NCBI GenBank assembly: GCA_947472795.1
Contig: CANJBL010000005.1
Location: forward strand, 62,001-126,000
Origin: Fidelibacterota bacterium
Lineage (GTDB): Bacteria > Pseudomonadota > Alphaproteobacteria > Rhodospirillales > Rhodospirillaceae
DNA: 64,000 nucleotides
Reading direction: 5' to 3'
Each line of letters starts with the position of its first letter. Positions within the stretch are counted from its first letter, which is position 1. The notes below the pieces were generated by a model, which saw only the letters and a list, made by a program, of their open reading frames with translations, had not been told where the DNA came from and did no database searches. The translations under genes and the position numbers were made by a program. This document shows, in pieces, positions 48,342-53,660 of the stretch.

Positions 48342-48593
48342 ATGACCGTTCTCTACTTCGCCTGGGTGAAGGAAAAGGTGGGCATGAGTACGGAAACGCT
48401 CACCCCTCCCACCGACGTCACAACAGTCGGCGCCTTGATGGATTGGTTAACCGTGCGCGGGCCCGGTCATGCCGCCGCGTTCGCGGATCGCAGCCTTATC
48501 AAAGCTGCCGTTGACCAAGTGCACGTCCCGCATACCGCACCGCTCGCCGGAGCCAAGGAAGTGGCGTTCTTTCCGCCCGTCACCGGTGGCTGA
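48342..48593 (+). CDS. moaD: Molybdopterin synthase sulfur-carrier subunit MoaD
   Basis: MoaD carries thiocarboxylate sulfur for molybdopterin synthesis. The 83-residue product has the ubiquitin-like pattern LYFAWVKEKVG and ends in the essential Gly-Gly (FPPVTGG). It starts four bases after pgsA. Its partner moaE is at 50014, separated by a methyltransferase gene on the opposite strand, unlike the usual moaD-moaE pair. Confidence 0.92.
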   Translation: MTVLYFAWVKEKVGMSTETLTPPTDVTTVGALMDWLTVRGPGHAAAFADRSLIKAAVDQVHVPHTAPLAGAKEVAFFPPVTGG

Positions 48594-50013: not shown

Positions 50014-50493
50014 ATGACATCACAAACTGCGGTGCGCGTTCAGCGTGAAGCCTTCGACCCCGGCATGGAGGTGGGCGACTTTTGCCGGCACAACGCCATG
50101 TCCGGCGGCGTCGCCACGTTCGTTGGTCAGATGCGCGATTTCCGCGGCGATACGCGCGAGTCCGGCGATACCATCACCGCCATGACGCTCGAACACTATC
50201 CCGGCATGGCCGAGCGGCAGCTCGAAGGTCTCATCACTGAAGCAAAAAGCCGCTGGCCTCTCGACGATGTCAGGGTCATCCACCGTTTTGGCACGTTGCA
50301 GCCAGGTGAGCCCATTGTGTTGGTGGCCGTCGCCGCGGCTCACCGGAGCGAGGCCTTCGAAGCCTGCGCTTTCCTCATGGATTGGCTGAAGACCGAGGCG
50401 CCCTTCTGGAAGAAGGAAAGCACCGCAGCCGGCGGCGCGTGGGTCGATGCCCGCGCCGCCGACGAAGATAAAGCCGAGCGCTGGCGGAGGTGA
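50014..50493 (+). CDS. moaE: Molybdopterin synthase catalytic subunit MoaE
   Basis: MoaE combines with MoaD to make molybdopterin from cyclic pyranopterin monophosphate. The 159-residue product has FVGQMRDFRGD, LEHYPGMAERQL, IHRFGTLQPGEPIVLVAVAAAHR and the catalytic Lys region TEAPFWKKE. It converges on the metallophore binding-protein gene. Confidence 0.93.
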   Translation: MTSQTAVRVQREAFDPGMEVGDFCRHNAMSGGVATFVGQMRDFRGDTRESGDTITAMTLEHYPGMAERQLEGLITEAKSRWPLDDVRVIHRFGTLQPGEPIVLVAVAAAHRSEAFEACAFLMDWLKTEAPFWKKESTAAGGAWVDARAADEDKAERWRR

Positions 50494-50499
50494 CCGCGC

Positions 50500-51504
50500 C
50501 TACGATGGATTGAGCAGCGCGGTGATCTGCTCTTCCGTCAGGTCCACATGATAGAAGAGTTTGAAGAAGCTTTTGGTGTCGGCTCGGAGCTGGTTCGCAT
50601 CGGGCGCGCCATAGAGCGCCGATGTCAACCACAACAAACCCAAGAGCCTGTTGACCGACGGCGGATGGTCCGTCCAACCCCACGGCGCGCGCGGTGGCGT
50701 GATGATGCGCCCCGCCTTTACCGCACGTAGGTCGGACCAGCCCGGTCCTTTGGCGTACTCGCGGAAGCGGCTGTCTATGGCGAGAATGAGATCGGGGTCG
50801 CCCGCCTGCACTTCCGCAGCATTGGCAGTTGGCGCCGAGATCACGTTCTTCATGCCAGCCAGGGCGTAGATGTCATTGAAGCCGCTGTCGGCCGATGTAG
50901 TTACTGTGCCGTCGGCCGAGCCTGCGACATACACTTTCACCGGCTTGGCCGTCGCAACCGTTTTCTGCACCCGATTGAGAACATCCTCCGCATAGCGGGC
51001 AAGCTCTTCCCCTCTGGCCGCACGACCGGTCAACTTTCCCAAAGCGCGCAGGGTTTCGGGCGTCTTTGCTACAGAAGCGCTCAACAAGACGTAAGGCAAA
51101 CCGGTTTTGTCCCGCACCTTCTCCGCCAATGCGATGTAACGCGCATCGGTGTCGCCGAAGTCGAGAATGAGCTGCGGCTTCTTGGCGAGGATTTCGGAGA
51201 TCTCGGGGTCTTGCCCCTTGGCTGTGACACCGCCGATTTCCGGCAGGGTCCTGACTTGCGGGGAAAGATAAGCCGCCACGTCCGGCCGCGGCGCATGCAC
51301 CCACCCCACCATGGCTTCAGGCGCGAAGGAATAGAGCAGAACTTCAGCAGGCGGACCTGCGGCGGCGATGCGGGTCACGGGTTCGGCGATTTTGATGGTG
51401 TGCCCCGTGACATCGGTGATCTCGCCGGCAAACGCCTGTGAGGCCAAGCCAAGCGCGAGCAGAAACGCCAGCTTCGTTCTCAGTAAAGATTGCGACATGC
51501 CCAT
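50500..51504 (-). CDS. ABC-type metal-complex substrate-binding protein
   Basis: The 334-residue product has a signal peptide (LAFLLALGLASQAFAG) and the FepB/BtuF/HmuT-type periplasmic-binding fold: GHTIKIAEPVTRIAAAGPPAEVLLY, EIGGVTAKGQDPEISEILAKKPQLIL, PDLILAIDSRF and WTDHPPSVNRLLGLLWL. It should carry an iron, heme, corrinoid or catechol-type metal complex. No permease or ATPase is adjacent. It is divergent from the TonB receptor gene, with two paired operators between them. The ATG at 51504 follows AGGAGA at proper distance; ATGs at 51531 and 51498 are alternatives. Confidence 0.85.
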   Translation of the reverse strand: MGMSQSLLRTKLAFLLALGLASQAFAGEITDVTGHTIKIAEPVTRIAAAGPPAEVLLYSFAPEAMVGWVHAPRPDVAAYLSPQVRTLPEIGGVTAKGQDPEISEILAKKPQLILDFGDTDARYIALAEKVRDKTGLPYVLLSASVAKTPETLRALGKLTGRAARGEELARYAEDVLNRVQKTVATAKPVKVYVAGSADGTVTTSADSGFNDIYALAGMKNVISAPTANAAEVQAGDPDLILAIDSRFREYAKGPGWSDLRAVKAGRIITPPRAPWGWTDHPPSVNRLLGLLWLTSALYGAPDANQLRADTKSFFKLFYHVDLTEEQITALLNPS

Positions 51505-51531
51505 AGTCTCTCCTGCGTTCGAGCCTTGCAT

Positions 51532-51589
51532 CGATATATCCTGTCAGATATATCAAGCCTTGGAACGAAATATTCTGACTGATATTTCG
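51532..51589. promoter_or_regulatory. Two Mo-box-like operators between binding protein and receptor
   Basis: Site 1 (51532-51555) has arms CGATATAT and ATATATCA; site 2 (51566-51589) has arms CGAAATAT and ATATTTCG, a perfect 8-bp inverted repeat. Both have an 8-base spacer with the shared pattern YCTGWCWG, and their centres are 34 bp apart. The 8-8-8 layout with CG ends and inner ATAT matches the ModE operator form (CGNTATAT-type arms). Site 2 lies 22 bases upstream of the receptor start. Confidence 0.6.
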
Positions 51590-51611
51590 CGTATCGCAAG
51601 GGGAGAATCAC

Positions 51612-53660
51612 ATGTTGCGCGTATCGCTGGCTTCGACTGTTTCGCTGCTGGCTTTGGCCATCACTGCGCCCACCGTCAAAGCCGCCGAAGACCAGGCCTT
51701 CAGCTTGGGTCAGATCGAACAGATCGTGGTTTCAGCGCAAGCCATCCAGCAGCGTCTGCAGCCCATGAGCCAGTCCGTGGTCTCTAGCGAAGAGATGTAC
51801 AAGTTCAACGAACAGACACTGGATCGGGCCATTGACTTGGTGCCGGGCGCCGTTTCGTCAAACACCGGCGGCAATCGTAACGAACGTCTCATCTTTGTGC
51901 GCGGCTTCGACCGTTTCCAGGTGCCGCTTTCCATCGATGGCATCCGTGTTTACCTGCCCGCCGACAACCGCCTCGACTACGGCCTTTTCCTCACCGCCGA
52001 TCTCGCGCAGATCCAGGTGCAGAAGGGCTACGTCTCGGTACTCGACGGCCCCGGCGGCATGGGTGGCGCGATCAACCTTGTCACCAAGCAGCCGACGCAA
52101 CCCTTCGAATGGGACGTGCGCGGCGGCATGACCGCCTCCGGCGATCTCTCGGCCAACGGCTATACCGGCTATGCGTCGGCCGGGTCCAAGCAGGAAAAAT
52201 ATTACGTGCATGTCAGCGGTGCCCTCACCGACATGATGCGCTGGAGCCTCTCGGACCGTTATGTGCCGACCGCGACTGAAAATGGCGGCTTCCGCGACCA
52301 TTCGCTGACCAAGAATTGGCGCGTCAACGCCAAAGCAGGTTACACGCCCAACGACAGCGACGAATACTCGCTGAGCTTCACCCAGCAATCCGGCAAGAAG
52401 GACGCGCCCTTCTCCGTCACCGACACCGTTGCCAGCCAACGCGATTGGCGCTGGCCCTATTGGGATGTACAGAGCATCTACTTCCTCTCCACCACTGCCC
52501 TCGGCCAGAACATGCATCTGAAGACAAAGGCTTACTACAACACCTTCAAGAACGGCCTGGAATCCTACGACGACGCCACGTACACGACGCAGAAGACTGC
52601 CAAGGCTTTCAGCAGCCCTTATGACGACAACGCATATGGCGGCAGCTTGGAATTAGATGCCGATCTGGCGCCATCCGACACCATCAAGGTGGCGGCGTTC
52701 TATCGCCGTGACCATCATGAAGAAGCCCAGACCACTTACGCGCCGACACTGTTCGTCGAGCCTGTGCAGACCAACGAGGAAGATACCTACTCCATCGCGT
52801 TGGAGAACCGGTTCCACGTCACGCCGCAGCTCGATTTCGTCGCCGGCGGCAGCTACGACTATCGCGACCTGCGTATCGCCAACGACTTTGCGTCGAACGC
52901 ATTCGTCTACTACGCGCTGAAGGATGCACATGCCTGGAACGGCCAGGCGGCGCTGATCTATAACATCGACCCCACGACGAACGTTTACGCTAACGTCTCC
53001 GACCGCACGCGCTTTCCGACAGTTTTCGAGCGCTTCAGTTCGCGGTTTGGCGGGTCCACCTCAAACCCCGGCTTGAAACCCGAGCGCGCGGTGAATACGG
53101 AAATCGGCGGTGGTACGCAGCTATTCGGCAATACCAAAGCCAGTGTGTCGCTTTACTACAACGACGTTACCGACGTCATTGTGTCGGTGCCGATTGTGGC
53201 CAACGGCACGAACGTCAACCAGAGCCAGAACGTCGGCAATGGGCACTATTACGGCGCCGAGTTCTCCATCGACAGTCACTTGGCCGACCACCTGGATCTC
53301 GCCGTGCGCTACAGCACGATCAAGCGCGTGATCCACAATCCGGTCAATGCGGCGTTCCGCCTCACCGGCGTGCCCAGTAACCAGATCTTTGCCTACCTGA
53401 CCTATGGCGTGATGGACAGGGTCAGCATATCGCCCAGCGTGTTGGCCGCCAGCGACCGCTGGACCGTCACCACCAATGGCGCCACTTACTTCCGCACCGG
53501 CGCGTATGTGCAAGCCAACCTGCAAGCCGATATCCGCGTAACGTCCAATGCCGACATCTCCTTCGGCGCGCGCAACCTCTTCGACGAGAACCACCAGCTC
53601 ACGGCCGGATTTCCTGAAGAAGGCCGCAACTTCTTCCTGAACTTGCGCATCCGCGGCTAA
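51612..53660 (+). CDS. TonB-dependent receptor (predicted metallophore or molybdenum-linked)
   Basis: The 682-residue product has a signal peptide (LASTVSLLALAITAPTVKA), a plug (IVVSAQAIQQRLQPMSQSVVSSEEM, FVRGFDRFQVPLSIDGIRVYLP, VLDGPGGMGGAINLVTK) and a beta-barrel ending RNFFLNLRIRG. The plug and barrel resemble catecholate siderophore receptors. The ATG at 51612 follows AAGGGGAG. Genetically it is paired with a divergent metal-complex binding protein and lies beside moaD/moaE; both are under the same Mo-box-like operators. The ligand may be a molybdenum or tungsten complex; iron cannot be excluded. Confidence 0.88.
   Translation: MLRVSLASTVSLLALAITAPTVKAAEDQAFSLGQIEQIVVSAQAIQQRLQPMSQSVVSSEEMYKFNEQTLDRAIDLVPGAVSSNTGGNRNERLIFVRGFDRFQVPLSIDGIRVYLPADNRLDYGLFLTADLAQIQVQKGYVSVLDGPGGMGGAINLVTKQPTQPFEWDVRGGMTASGDLSANGYTGYASAGSKQEKYYVHVSGALTDMMRWSLSDRYVPTATENGGFRDHSLTKNWRVNAKAGYTPNDSDEYSLSFTQQSGKKDAPFSVTDTVASQRDWRWPYWDVQSIYFLSTTALGQNMHLKTKAYYNTFKNGLESYDDATYTTQKTAKAFSSPYDDNAYGGSLELDADLAPSDTIKVAAFYRRDHHEEAQTTYAPTLFVEPVQTNEEDTYSIALENRFHVTPQLDFVAGGSYDYRDLRIANDFASNAFVYYALKDAHAWNGQAALIYNIDPTTNVYANVSDRTRFPTVFERFSSRFGGSTSNPGLKPERAVNTEIGGGTQLFGNTKASVSLYYNDVTDVIVSVPIVANGTNVNQSQNVGNGHYYGAEFSIDSHLADHLDLAVRYSTIKRVIHNPVNAAFRLTGVPSNQIFAYLTYGVMDRVSISPSVLAASDRWTVTTNGATYFRTGAYVQANLQADIRVTSNADISFGARNLFDENHQLTAGFPEEGRNFFLNLRIRG

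Follow-up and report, generated by a model that had tools for sequence, protein, structure and literature searches.

Two putative ModE-type operators between genes for a TonB-dependent receptor and an orphan MolA-like binding protein

The divergent gene pair and its intergenic sites

The window, the whole 64-kb stretch of DNA analysed here, contains two divergent genes, which encode an orphan, MolA-like Peripla_BP_2 binding protein (SBP; 50500..51504, minus strand) and a 682-residue TonB-dependent receptor (TBDT; 51612..53660, plus strand). Between the two genes lie two putative ModE-type operators, to which no strand is assigned: Mo-box 1 (51532..51555; CGATATAT-CCTGTCAG-ATATATCA), nearer the SBP gene, and Mo-box 2 (51566..51589; CGAAATAT-TCTGACTG-ATATTTCG), nearer the TBDT gene. 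The original prediction of two 24-bp sites, 34 bp apart from start to start between divergent SBP and TBDT genes, was confirmed from the letters, as was its description of the second site as a perfect 8-bp inverted repeat; the CG ends that it ascribed to both sites occur at 3 of the 4 ends, and one end of Mo-box 1 is CA. The pattern used to search for Mo-boxes was CGNNATAT-N8-ATATNNCG, which Mo-box 2 matches exactly and Mo-box 1 with one mismatch. Both sites have the 24-bp dyad of ModE operators, CGNTATAT(A)..(T)ATATANCG, and share 13 and 12 of the 16 specified bases with the full E. coli consensus (counted by eye). The published Mo-box consensus is ATCGNTATATA-N6-TATATANCGAT (PMC545781, PMC2700814).

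With at most one mismatch, the pattern matched both sites and nothing else in the 64 kb (shuffle mean 0.04), and none of 100 shuffles contained two matches. With at most two mismatches, the count in the window was near chance (3 found versus 1.38 expected; at least 3 in 12 of 100 shuffles). The observation of two ModE-type boxes is confirmed.

The SBP gene probably starts with the ATG at 51504; its longest open reading frame begins at 51531. Shine-Dalgarno-like motifs were read from the sequence ahead of the SBP gene (AGGAG, 51510..51514, minus strand) and the TBDT gene (GGGGAG, 51600..51605, plus strand). The SBP start is 27 bp from Mo-box 1 and the TBDT start (51612) 22 bp from Mo-box 2, a layout that would suit repression of both genes. 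No sigma-70 consensus promoter was found at 51450–51700, and the promoter and terminator scan was empty.

Family models identify moaD (48342..48593, plus strand) and moaE (50014..50493, plus strand; above the Pfam cut-off and slightly below the NCBIfam cut-off) as genomic context only. Their closeness to the boxes, which had also been predicted, was borne out at a distance of within about 3.2 kb. The same proximity is seen in four relatives from the genus that share this gene block (G001, G011, G016, and G018), and neither gene was matched in the stretches around the boxed loci of G003, G059, G067, G355, and G580. The adjacency was rejected as functional evidence because it holds in the genus block only, and nearness to moaD and moaE is weak evidence for function.

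A short ModE and its candidate targets

The genome of the window (G000; a 3.2-Mb draft in 51 contigs, 96.9% complete) contains a single ModE homologue, so the reading of the sites as ModE operators survived the search for a modE gene. The protein has 123 residues and consists of the HTH DNA-binding domain only. Its nearest PDB sequence is 2ijl (3.3e-30), E. coli ModE (1b9m) was matched at 7.3e-11, and the winged-helix feature is present. The match to TIGR00637 (4.5e-23, 81.2 bits) is under the curated cut-off of 98.5; among 148 relatives, 14 pass this cut-off and 83 have a match at 1e-8. The C-terminal Mop/TOBE molybdate-binding domains of full-length ModE are absent from the short protein, and the sole match of a TOBE search of the genome was partial and lay in a 48-residue frame elsewhere. 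The absent Mo-binding domain and the sub-cut-off score both count against the model set out below. At modA of Agrobacterium, a short ModE(S) reportedly binds a pair of Mo-boxes and responds to Moco status. The short ModE described here would probably bind DNA and act as a repressor. Its gene adjoins genes for TusA and a YeeE-type sulphur transporter (L026:2518-4240).

The exact pattern occurs at 4 places in the genome, with 10 more at one mismatch; at up to two mismatches there are 99 forward matches versus 58 with the reversed control pattern. One of the four exact boxes lies 43 bp upstream of the modA open reading frame, and the other three are at two TBDT genes. The modA-modB-modC set is complete, with each protein above its curated NCBIfam cut-off. 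The claim that the window system operates rather than the usual ModABC therefore failed: it does not stand instead of ModABC, which is present behind its own box. Compared with the ModE regulon known from the E. coli-type operator and from Agrobacterium ModE(S), the system has the same 24-bp frame, a short ModE homologue, and a box before modABC; it is unlike that regulon in its predicted targets, among which are the genes for two TonB-dependent receptors and for an orphan binding protein.

A second tandem Mo-box pair, with both boxes exact and 33 bp apart from start to start, is located at C6:21408-21464 (L028:6409-6465). It lies upstream of a gene for an 844-residue TonB-dependent receptor of another clade, which is only distantly related to the window TBDT (27% identity over 226 columns). 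Relatives of the C6 receptor were found at 14 places, the C6 gene itself included. Those in G058 and G020 (76–77% identity) have box pairs directly upstream, and that in G008 (56% identity) has one exact box; all three stand in other gene neighbourhoods. No box was found at the remaining ten places (38–46% identity). Two single boxes were also observed in the genome: a box-like CGTTATGTAGGTTTGTATATAACG at C1:37028-37051 (L029:6029-6052), approximately 160 bp ahead of the gene for an AraC-family regulator and with no Mo link seen, and a one-mismatch box at C7:138050-138073 (L030:6051-6074), which overlaps the start codon of a cytochrome c gene and may be a chance match.

Upstream of modA, a box with at most one mismatch was present in 18 of the 20 relatives examined, and the reversed pattern in none; the exceptions were G003, with two boxes with two mismatches, and G024, with none. 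On the basis of this box before modA, here and in the 18 relatives, iron, B12, or Fur control was set aside as the main reading. Two findings count against the model: G010, G017, and G018 keep their modA boxes with no ModE match detected there, and only 2 of the best-scoring 30 modA loci, all from other genera, have a box. The idea that ModE loss goes with box loss, raised by G018 (no ModE detected, and only a two-mismatch site at the SBP gene), was dropped because these three genomes keep good modA boxes.

The SBP is present in 12 of 148 relatives. Boxes were found at 6 of these 12 loci (G000, G001, G003, G011, G059, and G067), and no box with at most one mismatch at the other 6 (G016, G018, G023, G047, G060, and G129) or at most of the 80 named SBP loci listed, both of which count against the model. 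The TBDT is present in 9 of the 148 relatives and in 6 of 385 class-level genomes, two of these six being already counted. Within 350 bp upstream and at up to one mismatch, a box precedes 14 of 89 SBP loci (shuffle mean 0.05, maximum 1; reversed pattern 1) and 7 of 24 TBDT loci (shuffle mean 0.02, maximum 1; reversed pattern 1); these are not independent cases, because the loci are related and the window is counted in both sets, and the count omits six named loci that repeat G001, G003, G011, G016, G018, and G129. At up to two mismatches, the counts were 18 of 89 (reversed 6) and 7 of 24 (reversed 4); they were set aside because the number of such matches in the window is close to that expected by chance and because the reversed pattern is matched at the orthologues too. 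The predicted conservation of the sites was thus found in part, with boxes present again at some, not all, of the SBP and TBDT orthologues from other genera. Across 317 genomes of the order, a strict tandem-box pattern was matched at 3 places, in the window, at C6, and in G067, each time next to a TBDT gene and with no reversed control match in any genome; this pattern misses pairs with mismatches or wider spacing, for example those of G001, G011, and G059.

It is very improbable that chance produced the two sites or that they serve another regulator. Many regulators could use AT-rich inverted repeats, the two-mismatch count in the window points the same way, and the single boxes at C1:37028 and C7:138050 have no clear Mo link; against this stand the exact and one-mismatch counts above the shuffles, the same box before modA in nearly all relatives examined, and the confinement of strict tandem boxes to TBDT loci.

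The receptor, the binding protein, and their relatives

Pfam, the structure model, and the fold matches agree on a Plug domain and a 22-strand-type barrel in the TBDT. The model has a pLDDT of 85.4, with residues 1–26 and 37–49 below 50; the stretch IEQIVVSA (residues 35–42), which resembles a TonB box by eye, lies partly in this low-confidence region. The nearest folds are OprC (copper), PirA, Cir, PfeA, Fiu, and PqqU, at 15–18% identity, and the best solved relative by profile is Cir (1e-41). OprC, the TonB-dependent copper importer of Pseudomonas aeruginosa, is the top fold match (TM about 0.73–0.77 by query length) and differs in sequence (15–17% identity), metal, and control. The receptor alignment (A2) covers 19 of 23 TBDT frames, with broken, partial, and near-duplicate frames omitted. 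The TBDT orthologues of G003 and G016 (L061 and L063) each have an in-frame stop, and the receptor thus seems dispensable in some relatives.

The SBP is related to MolA of Haemophilus influenzae by both profile and fold. A profile of 69 SBP relatives finds 4pag (1.5e-76) and MolA (3psa, 8.6e-32), and in a Foldseek search with the SBP model (pLDDT 92.8), 4pag was the best match and MolA ranked 8 (E 1.7e-14). A single-sequence PDB search with the SBP did not reach MolA at E 0.01, which counts against the model. Siderophore, haem, and B12 binders also appear in the profile and fold match lists; they share the fold, which therefore gives no ligand.

No permease or ATPase was found beside the window SBP; a cognate FecCD and ATPase are present in G003, of the same genus, in the order box-SBP-FecCD-ATPase-TBDT, and in G580, where two boxes lie between divergent TBDT and SBP-FecCD-ATPase genes (the TBDT start is uncertain). 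The only FecCD of the window genome is BtuC-like (best NCBIfam match, below cut-off), and its neighbours are cobalamin genes (cobA- and cobT-family, over cut-off) and genes for BtuB-like and BtuF-like proteins. E. coli BtuF docks to BtuC, as we take it, through E72 and E202. These two columns of the alignment correspond to positions 103 and 230 of the SBP, and the window SBP has S103 and A230 there. Thus, the SBP both lacks its own permease and has lost both docking acids, a combination that is new here.

We tallied the docking columns over all 89 SBPs, split only by the presence of FecCD in the locus. Both columns are acidic in all 74 listed loci with FecCD (69 E/E and 5 E/D); of the 15 listed SBPs without FecCD in the locus, the first acid is gone in 9 (the window included) and both are retained in 6. 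The window SBP forms a clade (support 0.993) with those of G001, G011, G016, G018, G059, and G067; as in the 89-SBP tally, the comparison within this seven-member orphan clade is fair, and here all 7 members have lost the first acid and 6 of the 7 the second. L082 and L091 also have no FecCD in the locus and lost both acids; L082 lies elsewhere in the tree, so the acids were probably lost at least twice. The permease-linked rows of the SBP alignment (A3; 69 of the 89 SBPs, the other 20 being added for the docking-column tally) have 97 conserved columns, of which 78 are kept by at least 6 of 8 orphans and 12 are lost in at least 6; residue 103 is the only column lost in all 8. The eight orphans were picked after the acid loss had been seen, and this comparison describes the selectivity of the loss, not a tie to the missing permease. 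The seven-member clade shares further changes, such as T122R and I213Y, which could reflect a change of ligand and count against the model.

These data bear on whether the SBP is in fact part of an ordinary MolABC-like importer that uses BtuCD or a permease missing from the draft, which we regard as distinctly unlikely. The genome is an incomplete draft, G003 keeps SBP, FecCD, ATPase, and TBDT genes together, and the six rows that keep both acids without FecCD in the locus may be served by a distant permease elsewhere; on the other side, each of the seven genomes of the orphan clade (G000, G001, G011, G016, G018, G059, and G067, the last 66% complete) has a single full-length FecCD, its type being assigned in G000 only, and the clade has lost the docking acids almost throughout.

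Most SBP relatives belong to MolABC-like operons. Among the 80 named loci listed of 289 relatives, FecCD was found in 71, a ModE match in 14, a modA-like match in 26, either of the latter two in 31, and a match to the window TBDT in 12. The SBP-FecCD-ATPase genes of G129 adjoin modE, a modA-like gene, and a gene that by eye looks like one for formate dehydrogenase, and a Paracoccus locus (L143) combines modA, modE, a boxed TBDT, and SBP-FecCD-ATPase. In G388, an XdhC-family gene is flanked by TBDT and SBP genes, with a nearby AIRS-domain gene read as selD, and G598 has a similar arrangement by eye. In G355, two exact boxes lie ahead of the TBDT gene, with no SBP match within the 15 kb examined. 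Five Bartonella loci have TBDT-SBP-FecCD-ATPase and no box, which counts against the model.

Several further arrangements were observed. A modA-like gene lies directly before SBP-FecCD-ATPase on the same strand in L081, L083, L112, L116, and others, an arrangement like that of HI1469–HI1472, in which a single operon may be served by two unrelated binding proteins. In L164:2615-8614 and L165:6240-12311, TBDT and SBP genes surround an XdhC-family gene next to a selD-like gene, a layout that presumably resembles selenium-dependent Mo hydroxylase loci. G013 (L071:5519-10369) has a box ahead of genes for an SBP_bac_6 binding protein (another family), a TBDT, and a di-haem oxidoreductase, and G093 (L073:6738-11644) has a similar trio without a box.

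MolABC of H. influenzae (HI1470–1472) is a type II molybdate/tungstate importer. The window system resembles it in the family of its SBP, and SBP relatives have SBP-FecCD-ATPase genes, several behind a modA-like gene, as is described for HI1469–HI1472 (PMC3928620). It is unlike MolABC in that the SBP has no permease or ATPase nearby, no second FecCD in the genome, and no docking acids, and in that a TBDT and Mo-boxes are added. The factor repressing molB in H. influenzae is described as unknown (PMC4031551).

A candidate route for molybdenum across the outer membrane

The boxes, the ModE homologue, the box before modABC, the recurrence at orthologues, the family memberships, the missing permease, and the lost acids can all be read from sequence. 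On such evidence from several genera, the putative regulatory half of the system is well supported, and we strongly infer ModE-type regulation of the SBP/TBDT pair. Molybdenum as the transported element and its hand-off to ModA make up the proposed transport half. The interpretation in the original prediction is partly supported.

The joint model that we favour, and consider reasonably probable, is that the short ModE represses the receptor and the SBP and that Mo is scavenged across the outer membrane and fed to ModABC. The two sites would be tandem Mo-boxes for the short ModE. When Mo or Moco is sufficient, the short ModE would cover the DNA just upstream of both starts and repress both genes; when Mo is scarce, the receptor and the SBP would be produced. 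Powered by TonB, the receptor could then import a Mo source across the outer membrane, be it molybdate, a Mo chelate, or tungstate, and the SBP could retain it in the periplasm. ModABC, behind the same kind of box, would carry it into the cytoplasm; this is the most likely entry, given that the SBP lacks a dedicated permease as well as the docking acids of its class. More tentatively, and with rather less than even confidence, we suggest a free periplasmic relay, in which a type II SBP that has left its permease would, under Mo starvation, take molybdate delivered by a ModE-controlled TBDT, or strip it from a delivered chelate, and pass it to ModA of the unrelated type I importer; two different TBDT clades of this lineage would then be outer-membrane parts of the Mo regulon.

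The boxes could be real operators of the short ModE and the ligand be something other than Mo, such as an iron chelate, a cofactor, or a molybdoenzyme substrate gated by Mo status; we consider this unlikely. The nearest folds of the receptor are copper, catecholate, haem, and PQQ receptors, the SBP fold list includes siderophore, haem, and B12 binders, and the second boxed TBDT (C6) is near a Mo-hydroxylase gene pair. In Azotobacter vinelandii, VnfA1-dependent TonB siderophore receptor operons, the nearest Mo-linked TBDT operons found in the open-licence literature, likewise combine a TBDT with ABC components under control tied to Mo/V status, and differ in their control by the activator VnfA1, with no ModE site reported in the accessible part of the source (PMC9542535). 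Against a non-Mo ligand, 31 of the 80 named loci listed place the SBP relative next to modE or a modA-like gene, both of which adjoin the SBP of G129, and MolA is among the nearest solved relatives of the SBP.

For tungstate, imported alone or alike with Mo under the same operator, the case is weaker still, and we judge it highly unlikely: MolA binds both molybdate and tungstate (PMC4031551), and the G129 SBP operon is near the putative formate dehydrogenase gene, set against which the Mo-hydroxylase genes and modABC in the genome point to Mo. Binding of molybdate by MolA is described only near 100 µM (PMC10182148), which counts against the favoured model.

Mo is below 20 nM in most freshwaters (PMC3440940). 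No ModE-controlled or molybdate TBDT was found among the papers listed from the open-licence literature, a body of text in which most subscription papers are missing. The box pair at the gene for an import gate and that for its neighbouring binding protein suggests energy-driven Mo scavenging across the outer membrane. Passive passage of molybdate through the outer membrane is the usual assumption. If the model is true, some bacteria spend TonB energy on molybdenum, which would join the metals tied to TonB-dependent receptors, and other genomes could be searched for such scavenging by the combination of Mo-box and receptor. The SBP would, if so, also be a testable case of transport rewiring, in which a type II binding protein becomes independent of its permease during evolution.
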